Notes: generated from the sequence alone by a model not told the origin. 64,000 bases of DNA from an uncultured Anaerolineales bacterium (GCA_937135955.1 CAKZOB010000060.1:1-64000); one strand, 5' to 3'; shown: positions 24,207-29,907, counted from the first letter of the stretch. Numbers and translations: made by a program.

Positions 24207-25277
24207 TCAGCGGCGTATTGCCAGGATCAGACCCAGCAATGCCAGAACTGCGCCCACCACGATGGCAATAATCGGGATCGTGGTGCCGAACAGTTGGAGC
24301 TGATCTTTGGCATCCTGCGCGTCCTGCTTGGCATCCTGCACCGACTGGTCAGTGGCCTGGTATTCCAGGTGAAACACGGTGACGGGCAAGAACTGCGCGA
24401 CGACCTGCGGATCGACCAGCCCCAGAGCCTGGATTTTTTCGATCAGCGGCGTCATCAATTCTTCGGAGAAACCAACGCTGCGGATTTCGATCTTATGTGT
24501 GTCAATCAGCACGCCCGTCGTCGGTTCGATCCAGTATTCGGCCTGGTATTCGTAGACGTAGGATAGCGGCACCGGATCGGGCCAGCCCGCCTGTTTGATC
24601 AGCGCGGGTAGCGCCGCTGCTACCATGGGGTTGATATCCAGCCCACCGACCATCTGACCGATCTGCGCCTGAGTGAGTTCGGTGGGCAGACCCATGGCGG
24701 CCACGGCTTCGGGGGCGATGGGGCGCGGCTCGGACGAAGAAGTGAACAGGTAAGTCTTGATTCCGGCGCGGGGGTGCTCGACTTCGCCGGAGAAAGTCAG
24801 GGGCACAGTCGAGCGATAGTCGTCGCTCCAGCCTTCGTAGTCTTTTTTCTCGGTATCAATGGGCCAGCCCAGAACCAGCCCTGCGCGGTCTATCAAACCT
24901 TCTTTGCCGCGCCACGCTTCGGGATAGTCGGTGCTGAATTCCATGGTCTTGCGGTCAATGGCGTGCCGTTTGACCTGCGTGAGCAGCGGCGTGCCATCGG
25001 GCAGGCGTAGTTCCTGTTCTTCCAACACCAGAGCCAGCCCATCTGATGTCTCTTCGGTCTGGAAGTGACGCTCCAGTTCAACGGTGAGGTCGGTCATGAA
25101 TTGCAGCGTCTCGCGGTTGAGCAATACGGGCATCGTGCCTTCGTAGAGTCGGGTGGTATCTACGTCGTCGGGAAACTGCTTCATGCCCGGCACGATGACC
25201 AGCATGAGCACCAGTCCCGCAACGACCAGCACCAGACCGACCAGGAGTACAATAACCCCTGCCACTCGACGGTTCAT
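24207..25277 (-). CDS. DUF3068 (PorA-family) membrane-anchored protein
   Basis: 356 residues. One membrane segment lies at each end (about 8-30 and 330-352) with a soluble domain of about 290 residues between, presumably outside the cell. The pattern VVAGLVLMLVIVPGMKQFPDDVD, a central VPLTFSGEVEH and TTGVLIDTHKIEIRS fits DUF3068, known from actinobacteria and Chloroflexota. A run of KQDAQDAKDQLQ just before the last helix is coiled-coil-like. The function is unknown. No operon partner is seen. Confidence 0.85.
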   Translation of the reverse strand: MNRRVAGVIVLLVGLVLVVAGLVLMLVIVPGMKQFPDDVDTTRLYEGTMPVLLNRETLQFMTDLTVELERHFQTEETSDGLALVLEEQELRLPDGTPLLTQVKRHAIDRKTMEFSTDYPEAWRGKEGLIDRAGLVLGWPIDTEKKDYEGWSDDYRSTVPLTFSGEVEHPRAGIKTYLFTSSSEPRPIAPEAVAAMGLPTELTQAQIGQMVGGLDINPMVAAALPALIKQAGWPDPVPLSYVYEYQAEYWIEPTTGVLIDTHKIEIRSVGFSEELMTPLIEKIQALGLVDPQVVAQFLPVTVFHLEYQATDQSVQDAKQDAQDAKDQLQLFGTTIPIIAIVVGAVLALLGLILAIRR

Positions 25278-26365: not shown

Positions 26366-28114
26366 TCATCGGCGCGGGCGAACACCGGTGACACGATAGA
26401 GTTCTCGATAGATCGGATAGTCCTTGTGCTTGCGGGGAGGCAGCGGCTCGGCGATGACGATCTCGCGTACATGCTGATACGTCTGCGGACTGATGAGAAT
26501 CTCACCGGGCAGGGCGTTTTCTTGCAGATATTTGGCGCGATTGATCGGCATCCCGATGGCCGTGAACTCCTTGCGGCTGGGACTGCCCACGTTGCCCAGC
26601 ACCGCGACACCCGTCTCGACGCCAATGCCATAGAACAGGCGGTGTTCCGGGGGCAAGACTTCGTGGAGCGCTCGCACATCATAGGCCATCGTGAGGGCGG
26701 CGCGCACGGCGCGGATGGCATGATCCTCCTGCGGGTTCAGTTGGGTGTTGAACAACCCCACGACCGCGTCGCCCATGTACTTGTCGACGATCCCCTCCTG
26801 CAGTTGCAGGGCATCGGTGCAGACAGTGAGATAGCGGCTGATGATGGACATCAACAGTTCAGGATCGAGATGCTCACTGAAGCTGGTGAAGCCCCGCACG
26901 TCGGCAAAGACGACCGAAATCTCGCGCTCGTCGCCGCTCAGGCCCAGCCGGTCAATGCTCTGAATGTTGCGCACCAGCGACGGCGGCAGATAAGTATGTA
27001 CTACTTTGAGCGTGGCATCTCGCCGGCGAATCTCGGTGAGATCGTCCACAACGAGAGCTGTGCCGACGATGACATCTCGCGCATCTTTCAACGGAGTCAG
27101 GCGCAGGCTTAGCGTCACCGCGCCACGGTGTGGCAACACCGGCTCGATCTCGAAGACATGAGGTCGGTTGTGCAGCAGGACGGTTTGTGTCACGCTGTTG
27201 AGGCTGGCGAATACGTCGGGAAGTACATCGGTGACCGGTTGCCCAACTGCCCGATCATGAGGGATGCCCAGTATCTGTTGCGCTGCGCGGTTGTAGATGA
27301 CGATGCGATCGTGGCGGTCGGTGGTGATCACGCCGCTGGCGATGGATTCCAGCACATTATCCAGCAGGTGTTTTATCTCTGTGATGGAAGCCAGGGCCTG
27401 CCGTACCCGCGCGAAAAGGTGCGCGTTCTCGATGGCAACGGCTGCCTGATTGGCAAAGGCCAGCAACAGCGATGCTTCGCGCTCGCCGAACAGGTTCAGT
27501 GCTCGTCTGTTGTCCGCGTAGAGCACGCCGATCACCTGTCCCCTGGACAGTAAGGGGACACAAATAAGGGAGTGAGGGCCATGAGTCATGATGCTGGTCT
27601 GCAGGCCGAGGTGTGTATCGAGCAAGGCATCACCAGCAATCAGCGGCTGACCGGTGCGAGCTACCTGCTGGACGACGCTCTCGCTGACAGCAAAAGCGGA
27701 TGCCTCAAGAGGGCGTCGTTGGGCGTCGCGAGCGATGCGGAATTCGAGCAGTCCGCTATCGGGAGATTGCAGCAGAATGTACGCCCGTTCCGCGCCAGTG
27801 ATGGCGATGGCTGTGTCAATCACTTCGGTGAGCACAGTATCGGGGTCGAGGGACGAATTGAGTAGAGCAGTGGTCTGAGCCAGCGCGCGCAGTTGATCGA
27901 GGGTCGTGCTGTCTTCGGCCAGGCTGTGCACGATCTGTTCGAGTTCCGTGCGGGCTGTCAGCAGCCTGTCCAGGACACCCGGCGCGAGGATCATCCCGCG
28001 CTGGCGCAACGCCTGATCCTGTTGCTGCGCCAATGCCACCAAAGCCTGAGCCTGGCGTTCCAGGTAAGCCAATCTCTCCAGGGCCTGGCTCTTGATGTTG
28101 AGGGTGTTGAACAT
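26366..28114 (-). CDS. GAF-PAS-class III cyclase, C1-like partner (metal Asp kept)
   Basis: 582 residues from ATG 28114, which has GAGG 10 bases upstream; an ATG at 28138 is also possible. Order: coiled coil (about 10-80), GAF (about 85-240), PAS (about 247-365), class III nucleotide cyclase domain (about 397-565). In the cyclase domain both metal-binding aspartates are present, D405 in VVFADVRGF and D449 in KYMGD, with K445. The transition-state Asn is kept (N525) but the Arg four residues later is tyrosine (Y529, motif INRAKYLQ). A homodimer should therefore be weak or inactive. The upstream gene is its paralogue. No membrane segment is seen, so it is cytosolic. Confidence 0.9.
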   Translation of the reverse strand: MFNTLNIKSQALERLAYLERQAQALVALAQQQDQALRQRGMILAPGVLDRLLTARTELEQIVHSLAEDSTTLDQLRALAQTTALLNSSLDPDTVLTEVIDTAIAITGAERAYILLQSPDSGLLEFRIARDAQRRPLEASAFAVSESVVQQVARTGQPLIAGDALLDTHLGLQTSIMTHGPHSLICVPLLSRGQVIGVLYADNRRALNLFGEREASLLLAFANQAAVAIENAHLFARVRQALASITEIKHLLDNVLESIASGVITTDRHDRIVIYNRAAQQILGIPHDRAVGQPVTDVLPDVFASLNSVTQTVLLHNRPHVFEIEPVLPHRGAVTLSLRLTPLKDARDVIVGTALVVDDLTEIRRRDATLKVVHTYLPPSLVRNIQSIDRLGLSGDEREISVVFADVRGFTSFSEHLDPELLMSIISRYLTVCTDALQLQEGIVDKYMGDAVVGLFNTQLNPQEDHAIRAVRAALTMAYDVRALHEVLPPEHRLFYGIGVETGVAVLGNVGSPSRKEFTAIGMPINRAKYLQENALPGEILISPQTYQHVREIVIAEPLPPRKHKDYPIYRELYRVTGVRPRR

Positions 28115-28146
28115 AGGCGGCGTACCTCTGGTGAGCATGTCATCGG

Positions 28147-29907
28147 TCAGGGTTGGCGGCTGCGGCGGACTTCGAAGATGCGTGTCGGCTGACTGCGACC
28201 TTTGACGAGTACCGTGCCTCGCTCGATAACCAGCAGCCCGTAGGCCGAGTCATGCAGGAAGTCGGAGCAGGCGGCGTAAGTGTCTTCGCTGAGGATGATT
28301 TGACCAGGTGCGGCGCTTTCTTGCAGGCGTTTGGCCAGGTTGACGGTGTCCCCAATGGCGGTGAAGGCGCGGCGCGATGGGCTACCCACATTGCCCAGAG
28401 TCGCCACGCCGGTGTGAATGCCGATGCGCCAATGAGCAACTACTTCTTCGCCCAGGCGCTCGGTCAGGGTCTGGAATTCATCGGCCATGATCAGCGCGGC
28501 CAGCACCGCCTGCCAGGCGTGATCGGCGCTGGGATTGAGTTGCGTGTTGAACAGCCCCATGATCTCGTTGCCCATGAACTTGTCAATGACCCCCTGGCGG
28601 TTGTGTATGGCTTCCGCCCCAGCTGTGAGATAGAGATTGAGCAGCTCCATGAGTTCCTGGGGGCGCAGGGTATCTGGAAACGAGTGGAAGGGGCGTGTCT
28701 CTACAAACAGGGTTGTGATCGTGCGACGTTCTCCGCCCAACCCCAGTTCGTCAAGACTCTGAATGTTGTCCACCATACCCGGTGGCAGATAGCGCCGAAC
28801 CAGTTCCAGGGTTGCCTCGCGCTGCTTGATCTCGGTCAGATCGTTGACGACGATCACGACGCCGACGATCCGCTCTTCATCGAGCAGGGGGGAAAGCGCT
28901 ACGTGCAGGTAGATGTCGCCTCGTTCTGGTAAGGTCAGGGCGAGATCGAGGCGATGACTCTGCCCTTGCTCCAGCACTTCGTTTTGCAGGTCGGCCAGGG
29001 TTCGGGCAAGCGTGGGCATGACCTGTGCCAGACTGAGGCCCTGCACGGCAGGGGCGGGCACGCCAAAGATGTGCGCTGCTGCCTGGTTGCAGGTGAGGAT
29101 GGTACCTGCGGCGTCGAGCGTTATCACGCCACTGGCGATCGAGGCGAAGACATCGTCCATCAACTCCTTCATGGCCGTGACTTCGCTGAGGGCGGCCTGC
29201 GCGTGTGCGAATAGCCGCGCGTTTTCGATGGCGATGGCGGCCTGGTTGGCGAAGGCGGTCAGCAGGTGTAGTTCTTTCTCGCGGAAGACACCATCCTTAA
29301 CGCGATTGTCTACGTAGACAACGCCAGTCACGCGATCCTTGAGCACCAGGGGAACGCACAGGATGGAGCGCAGGGCGTGAATCACCACGCTTTCCTGGGT
29401 GCTATACGCTGGATCGGCCTGGGCATTGGTGGTCAGCACAGGTTGACCTGTCTCGGCAACCTGACGGACGACCGTGCGACTGACGATGAATTCGCCGCGT
29501 TCGAGCGTCTCGCGATCCAGATTGCGGGCCACGCGGAATTCCAGTTCGCCGCTATCTTCATCGCGCAGCACGATGTATCCGCGCTCGGCCCCCGTCAGCC
29601 TGATCACAGTATCCATGACCTCGTTGAGCACCTGATTGAGGTCGAGCGAGGAGTTGATCAGGGCCGTGGTTTGGGCCAGGGCAGTGAGTTGTTCCAGCTC
29701 AATGTAAACGGGTTGCAGAAAGTCCGCTAGGCGGCGTAGGTCGCCTGTGAGAGCATCCAGTCCCGTTAATATCTCAGGGGTCAGTGCCAATCCGCGCTGG
29801 CGCAGCAGACTGTCCTGGGTGTGCAGCGTGTCGCTCACCTCTTGCAGGGAACGGCTCACCATGGCGAGTTGATCGGTCAGCCCTTGGCTGGTGGTGGGGC
29901 GGATCAT
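28147..29907 (-). CDS. GAF-PAS-class III cyclase, C2-like partner (metal Asp lost)
   Basis: 586 residues from ATG 29907. The frame is open to 29982, but a TATAAT lies at 29954-29959, so the longer form would start upstream of the promoter. Layout is the same as its neighbour: coiled coil, GAF (about 95-238), PAS (about 245-365), cyclase domain (about 395-570). The two metal-binding positions are changed: E403 in LFVETRPF and N447 in KFMGN. K443 is kept, and the Asn/Arg pair is intact (N523 and R527 in TVNLAKRLQ). This is the pattern of the C2 half of mammalian adenylyl cyclases. It is the first gene of the pair, 32 bp ahead of the other. Confidence 0.9.
   Translation of the reverse strand: MIRPTTSQGLTDQLAMVSRSLQEVSDTLHTQDSLLRQRGLALTPEILTGLDALTGDLRRLADFLQPVYIELEQLTALAQTTALINSSLDLNQVLNEVMDTVIRLTGAERGYIVLRDEDSGELEFRVARNLDRETLERGEFIVSRTVVRQVAETGQPVLTTNAQADPAYSTQESVVIHALRSILCVPLVLKDRVTGVVYVDNRVKDGVFREKELHLLTAFANQAAIAIENARLFAHAQAALSEVTAMKELMDDVFASIASGVITLDAAGTILTCNQAAAHIFGVPAPAVQGLSLAQVMPTLARTLADLQNEVLEQGQSHRLDLALTLPERGDIYLHVALSPLLDEERIVGVVIVVNDLTEIKQREATLELVRRYLPPGMVDNIQSLDELGLGGERRTITTLFVETRPFHSFPDTLRPQELMELLNLYLTAGAEAIHNRQGVIDKFMGNEIMGLFNTQLNPSADHAWQAVLAALIMADEFQTLTERLGEEVVAHWRIGIHTGVATLGNVGSPSRRAFTAIGDTVNLAKRLQESAAPGQIILSEDTYAACSDFLHDSAYGLLVIERGTVLVKGRSQPTRIFEVRRSRQP

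Follow-up and report, generated by a model that had tools for sequence, protein, structure and literature searches.

We identified two adjacent genes, U (upstream) and D (downstream), in a 64,000-nucleotide stretch of DNA from an uncultured Anaerolineales bacterium (the window) that very likely encode an obligate heterodimeric class III adenylyl cyclase, with U as C2-like and D as C1-like subunit, derived by duplication and complementary degeneration. Catalysis, obligate pairing and cAMP as the product are inferred. The complete set of catalytic residues (two metal Asp, Lys, Thr/Asp, Asn and Arg) is reached only by U and D jointly and by neither chain alone, and this division into a metal half and a nucleotide and transition-state half is fixed family-wide, in 127/127 complete pairs.

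Tandem paralogues with complementary active-site halves

U and D are tandem paralogues with one common layout, an N-terminal coiled coil followed by GAF, PAS and class III cyclase domains (Pfam: GAF, PAS, Guanylate_cyc; Table 1). Both meet the class III criterion, with Guanylate_cyc/CHD (PF00211) scores of 59 bits for U and 48.3 bits for D at a curated cut-off of 21.9. As two soluble open reading frames with GAF and PAS domains, they do not fit the description of the mammalian membrane type, in which C1 and C2 are fused and hexahelical membrane domains are present. D has an alternative in-frame start, the ATG at 28138, that would cut the gap between the genes to 8 bp; the AGAGG 10 nt ahead of 28114 favours the ATG at 28114. 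A close relative is Anaerolineales bacterium UBA2029 (Chloroflexota), with a 90-93% match to the window.

An earlier, sequence-only reading of the window had proposed the gene coordinates, protein lengths, intergenic gap and shared domain layout given in Table 1, all of which held in open reading frames, translations and Pfam matches. It had also assigned the two genes one shared promoter, which remained unsupported: no sigma-70-like promoter was found just upstream of U, and a common promoter is only inferred, not shown, from the same strand, the short gap and the absence of a terminator-like site.

Table 1 Features of the U-D gene pair, with positions counted from the first nucleotide of the window
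Feature	Position	Strand	Basis
Gene U (upstream, C2-like subunit, inferred), 586 aa	28147..29907	-	ORF and translation; Pfam
U GAF domain, residues 88-228	29224..29646	-	PF13185 7.5e-24, PF01590 6.5e-23
U PAS domain, residues 250-359	28831..29160	-	PF08448 3.6e-13, PF00989 9.1e-12
U class III cyclase domain, residues 393-575	28183..28731	-	PF00211 6.1e-16
U codon 403, first metal position, Glu (Asp in canonical enzymes)	28699..28701	-	aligned columns
U codon 447, second metal position, Asn	28567..28569	-	aligned columns
U codon 523, ribose-orienting Asn, intact	28339..28341	-	aligned columns
U codon 527, transition-state Arg, intact	28327..28329	-	aligned columns
Intergenic gap U/D, 32 bp, AGAGG 10 nt before D start	28115..28146	-	sequence
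Gene D (downstream, C1-like subunit, inferred), 582 aa	26366..28114	-	ORF and translation; Pfam
D GAF domain, residues 89-229	27428..27850	-	PF01590 8.4e-20
D PAS domain, residues 250-363	27026..27367	-	PF08448 3e-12
D class III cyclase domain, residues 395-577	26384..26932	-	PF00211 1.2e-12
D codon 405, first metal Asp	26900..26902	-	aligned columns
D codon 449, second metal Asp	26768..26770	-	aligned columns
D codon 525, Asn, present in the window	26540..26542	-	aligned columns
D codon 529, Tyr replacing transition-state Arg	26528..26530	-	aligned columns

The six catalytic columns correspond, in D numbering, to metal 1 (405), Lys (445), metal 2 (449), Thr (518), Asn (525) and Arg (529). At these columns U carries E403, K443, N447, T516, N523 and R527, and D carries D405, K445, D449, T518, N525 and Y529. 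The metal half of the U cyclase domain is degenerate and its Lys/Thr/Asn/Arg half intact; in D, the metal half is intact and the Asn/Arg half released. The composite set accordingly combines D405/D449 of D with K443/T516/N523/R527 of U, and the bacterial homodimeric criterion of all catalytic residues in one chain is met by neither protein. The residue assignments of the sequence-only reading held, and phmmer alignments of U and D to the known cyclases CyaB and Cya2 showed no shift of these columns. Chance or misalignment behind the complementary pattern was ruled out by the unshifted columns and the invariance of the pattern across pairs, and sequencing or assembly error behind the substitutions by its occurrence in 127 species.

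The division of residues is fixed across the order

A search of 154 genomes of one Anaerolineae order (Chloroflexota) revealed the pair or parts of it in 136 genomes, one full-length gene in nine (all from family f3) and no match in another nine. Residues were counted in the 127 complete pairs, which represent 127 species. First genes never carry the second metal Asp (0/127; N in 72, T in 28, S in 21, G in 2 and E, H, A or Q in one each) and all keep Lys, Asn and Arg (127/127), with T in 121 and S in 6 at the Thr position. Second genes always carry both metal Asp (127/127) and never the transition-state Arg (0/126, one row being cut by a contig end), which is replaced by L in 44, F in 37, Y in 17, K in 12, I in 6, W in 4, Q in 3, S in 2 and T in one. 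Their Asn position is mostly D, E, N, T or Q, with Asn kept in 19/127, and their Thr position is A or G in 56. Two losses are universal across these complete pairs: U is without the second metal Asp and D without the Arg. The earlier claim that U had lost both metal positions, E403 and N447, is hence refined: only the second-position loss is universal in first genes, and E403 of the window is a secondary loss, because the first metal position is still Asp in 72/127 first genes (Glu in 40/127).

The genes of every complete pair lie on one strand, U ahead of D, with frames abutting or overlapping. Adjacency and order are kept in eight families despite differing gene neighbours, and the window neighbours aspS, rpoB, cysC and porA adjoin the pairs of near relatives only. 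In the nine remaining genomes, which are broken by contig ends, the readable residues fit the pattern (G076 not included). No degenerate member stands alone except at contig breaks: the seven apparent orphans all lie at contig ends, with a partner fragment or contig break at each site, and two further members (L271 and L272) are likewise truncated. The proposal that the two losses always co-occur therefore held, in an adjacent pair of fixed order in 127/127 cases, and a lone orthologue with the substitutions, which would have refuted it, was not found except at contig ends. U and D were also lost as a unit, with neither gene present in G009, G038, G046, G058, G063, G102, G103, G104 and G105, several of which are of high completeness. 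Genomes of genus g35, with about 4-16 first-look candidates compared to about 100 elsewhere, nevertheless kept the pair.

A single duplication of a canonical cyclase gene

Of the complete orthologues without a partner gene, nine belong to family f3 and 51 to other orders or classes of the phylum; 60/60 carry Asp, Asp, Asn and Arg and resemble ordinary homodimeric cyclases. U and D each form one clade (SH-aLRT 99 and 98, respectively) and are sisters in a maximum-likelihood tree built from 111 proteins; f3 branches just outside U+D, and the rest of the phylum outside f3. The tree was unchanged when 19 active-site/interface and neighbouring columns were masked, and AU tests rejected the groupings U+f3 (p 0.00014) and D+f3 (p 4.9e-8). 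Since U and D are each one clade with f3 outside, the tree shows a single tandem duplication of a canonical gene after f3 had split off. Two or more independent duplications were ruled out by the monophyly of U and of D, also with the 19 columns masked, and an origin of f3 by later reversal or fusion from one copy by the AU tests. As all pairs stem from one duplication, the 127 pairs are not 127 independent events.

The losses common to all descendants, of metal 2 from U and of the Arg from D, were likely the first; metal 1 of U and the Asn of D were likely lost later and repeatedly. The single gene of f3 can be regarded as a living stand-in for the pre-duplication ancestor. Each of the f3 singles (L095, L068, L076, L082, L087, L091, L099, L103 and L106) retains the full set of six, namely Asp, Lys, Asp, Thr, Asn and Arg.

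Each copy is constrained in a different half of the site

In an unbiased scan, parsimony changes were counted per clade (clade lengths 19.2 for U and 17.9 for D) in the 37 cyclase columns that are at least 90% conserved in singles. Columns N525 (0 vs 19 changes) and R529 (0 vs 14) were frozen in U and free in D, and D522, V524 and G565 of the VKG motif were also released in D only (3-6 changes in U vs 18-19 in D). Conversely, D449 (10 vs 0) and D405 (7 vs 0) were free in U and frozen in D, with G408, E414 and E419 also released in U only. The columns released in each clade are the two half-sites of a class III cyclase. Nothing else argues as strongly as this long-term asymmetric constraint for use of the composite site and for the importance of its being composite, although catalysis itself is inferred.

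Within a genome, the GAF domains of U and D are 50% alike (orthologues, 52-54%) and their PAS domains 37% (orthologues, 40-42%), compared to 38% for the cyclase domains (orthologues, 52-58%). Divergence between the copies is concentrated in catalysis, not in the sensors. The suggestion that the two GAF-PAS pairs integrate two inputs is thus unsupported, as the GAF domains of U and D are about as alike as orthologues; sensors reading different inputs remain possible, without support from sensor divergence.

Predicted structure of the pair

Seven loci have the U and D frames in register, and for one of these (L064) the translation was carried past its TAG and modelled with AlphaFold using 16 sequences (mean pLDDT 75.8, pTM 0.41). 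Both cyclase domains of the model jointly superpose on the soluble C1-C2 domains of human AC9 (6r4p, Z 38.1, 3.1 Å over 404; 9u3p, Z 38.6, 3.7 Å over 429), on human sAC (5iv4, Z 33.3, 3.6 Å over 402) and on 6yii (Z 28.9, 3.5 Å over 354). U and D are hence predicted in the head-to-tail arrangement of C1-C2, which, at this pTM, is consistent with a heterodimer and no proof of one. The model is non-discriminating, because AlphaFold would probably dock homodimers likewise.

Proposed enzyme and alternative explanations

In the proposed enzyme, D would supply two metal Asp (D405, D449) to one complete site, and U would supply adenine-binding K443/T516 plus N523/R527, with the site formed by head-to-tail pairing of the two cyclase domains in the predicted geometry. 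The mirror site, lacking a metal Asp and the Arg, would be a pseudo-site, perhaps with a regulatory role, and parallel GAF-PAS-coiled-coil stalks are inferred to gate the complete site. The pair would have originated in the ancestor of most of the order, when a canonical homodimeric GAF-PAS-cyclase was duplicated once in tandem and the copies then degenerated in complementary ways. Adenylyl rather than guanylyl specificity is inferred from the base-binding Lys (127/127) and Thr/Ser (127/127) of first genes; the substrate is untested. Three CRP-type cNMP-binding domains are matched in the same genome, and a cAMP signal could therefore be read.

The obligate heterodimer is supported as far as sequence goes, with activity untested. 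Regarding the claim that each homodimer would lack essential residues, the residue part held, and weak residual activity of D alone remains possible, since Arg loss lowers turnover and the metal site stays. A further point against the heterodimer is that some metal binding by U is not excluded, given a conserved Glu at U448 and a metal 1 Asp in 72/127 first genes.

Three other explanations were weighed. D might be active as an Arg-less homodimer, with U as a catalytically inactive pseudo-cyclase whose sole role is to bind and regulate D. In favour of this, D keeps both metal Asp, Lys and, in the window, Asn, and the second metal Asp of U is gone everywhere; moreover, class III cyclases that lose this Arg turn over more slowly but are not always inactive. 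However, a merely regulatory U need not hold Lys, Asn and Arg invariant, and these are unchanged in 127/127 over 19 changes per site. In addition, the Asn of D is lost in 107/126 and its Thr in many (A/G in 56), leaving a D-D site without most of its nucleotide side, which makes this explanation very unlikely. Also very unlikely is the view that U and D are both non-catalytic nucleotide-binding sensors like the P. aeruginosa 6yii protein. The U-D model does superpose on this bacterial two-domain cyclase homologue, but the full catalytic set is present at the composite site of each complete pair, which would be needless for a binding-only protein, and single-copy relatives are canonical.

That U and D each pair with some other cyclase encoded in the genome, instead of with each other, is all but excluded. 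A candidate partner exists, as the genome encodes three class III cyclase domains, namely U, D and one canonical protein on contig C29. Yet the C29 protein differs in layout and has intact residues, so that it needs no partner, and U and D stay next to each other in one order in eight families whose gene neighbours differ, and go missing together. Besides U and D, the C29 protein (L229; G000:C29:9599-10036) is the sole class III cyclase encoded in the genome; it has canonical residues and no U/D-like GAF-PAS layout.

Under the preferred heterodimer reading, a bolder version is also conceivable, in which the pair is a bacterial, order-wide reinvention of the animal C1/C2 arrangement, the freed second site is an allosteric ligand pocket and the stalks are read jointly. 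The forskolin site of mammalian cyclases is an allosteric ligand pocket of this kind.

Relation to known cyclases

In mammalian cyclases, class III sites are divided such that the metal Asp lie on C1 and the nucleotide and transition-state residues on C2 (PMC4174876). Membrane adenylyl cyclases and soluble ADCY10 thereby resemble U-D, with one site built from a metal-Asp C1 and a Lys/Asp-Asn-Arg C2 next to a degenerate mirror site (PMC4174876). Their halves are fused with C1 before C2, whereas U and D are bacterial, separate genes with the C2-like one first and GAF-PAS on each; as U and D are sisters, the two splits have no recent common origin. Animal soluble guanylyl cyclase alpha/beta likewise consists of homologous subunits from two genes with one site and a pseudo-site (PMC3591389), but is eukaryotic, uses GTP and has a haem sensor; U keeps the adenine-type Lys and Thr. 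Chytrid NeoR with RGC1/2 forms obligate heterodimers from separate genes, as inferred for U-D. RGC1 and RGC2 keep all catalytic residues, however, and their pairing is attributed to other domains (PMC8815786), in contrast to U-D, where the residues themselves are split.

Among bacterial proteins, CyaB of P. aeruginosa, CyaC of Spirulina and Cya2 are the closest solved cyclases to U and D by sequence and share their fold, with Cya2 (2w01) and CyaB nearest, together with a phytochrome-cyclase fusion (6fht) that carries a Cya2-type cyclase. Bacterial homodimers have all residues on each chain and two equal sites (PMC4174876), which applies to neither U nor D. The P. aeruginosa cyclase-like ATP-binding protein (6yii) is bacterial and has two cyclase homology domains, in one fused chain without sensors. 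Its domain order is C2-C1, as in U-D, and it is not known to have cyclase activity.

According to published work, the class III cyclases of bacteria are homodimers in which each chain has the full residue set (PMC4174876, PMC9552081). Split sites have been ascribed to eukaryotes, in adenylyl cyclases and in soluble guanylyl cyclases (PMC3591389, PMC8815786), and the C1/C2 split has been described as a eukaryotic development following duplication and fusion. Against this background the U-D pair would be new for bacteria, its heterodimeric nature being inferred. The literature searched contained no two-gene heterodimeric bacterial class III cyclase, only eukaryotic or engineered cases, which is weak evidence as few subscription journals were covered. 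Here, about 136 species of bacteria have a fixed C1/C2-like split without fusion, and a canonical, unduplicated gene survives in sister family f3. With the split fixed and the ancestral form living, the steps from homodimer to heterodimer, the retention of a dead site and the order of losses become testable in living sequences.

Additional observations

Window positions 24207-25277 encode a PorA/PgfA-like protein (PF11271, 9.4e-47) in this Chloroflexota genome, with the NCBIfam PgfA model below its cut-off. At L078 (G028:C23), both genes are split into four open frames, apparently by frameshifts, which could reflect either decay or long-read indel errors. Codon 448 of U (28564-28566), beside the lost metal Asp, is Glu in 91% of first genes, and the position is Ala in D and in singles; this Glu is possibly part of the pseudo-site. 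Finally, the adenine-type Lys is replaced by Gln in many second genes of genus g35 and its neighbours (L202-L204, L233-L270; 27/127 overall), and second genes of g35 have Ala in place of Thr too, which we interpret as continued erosion of the nucleotide half that D does not use.
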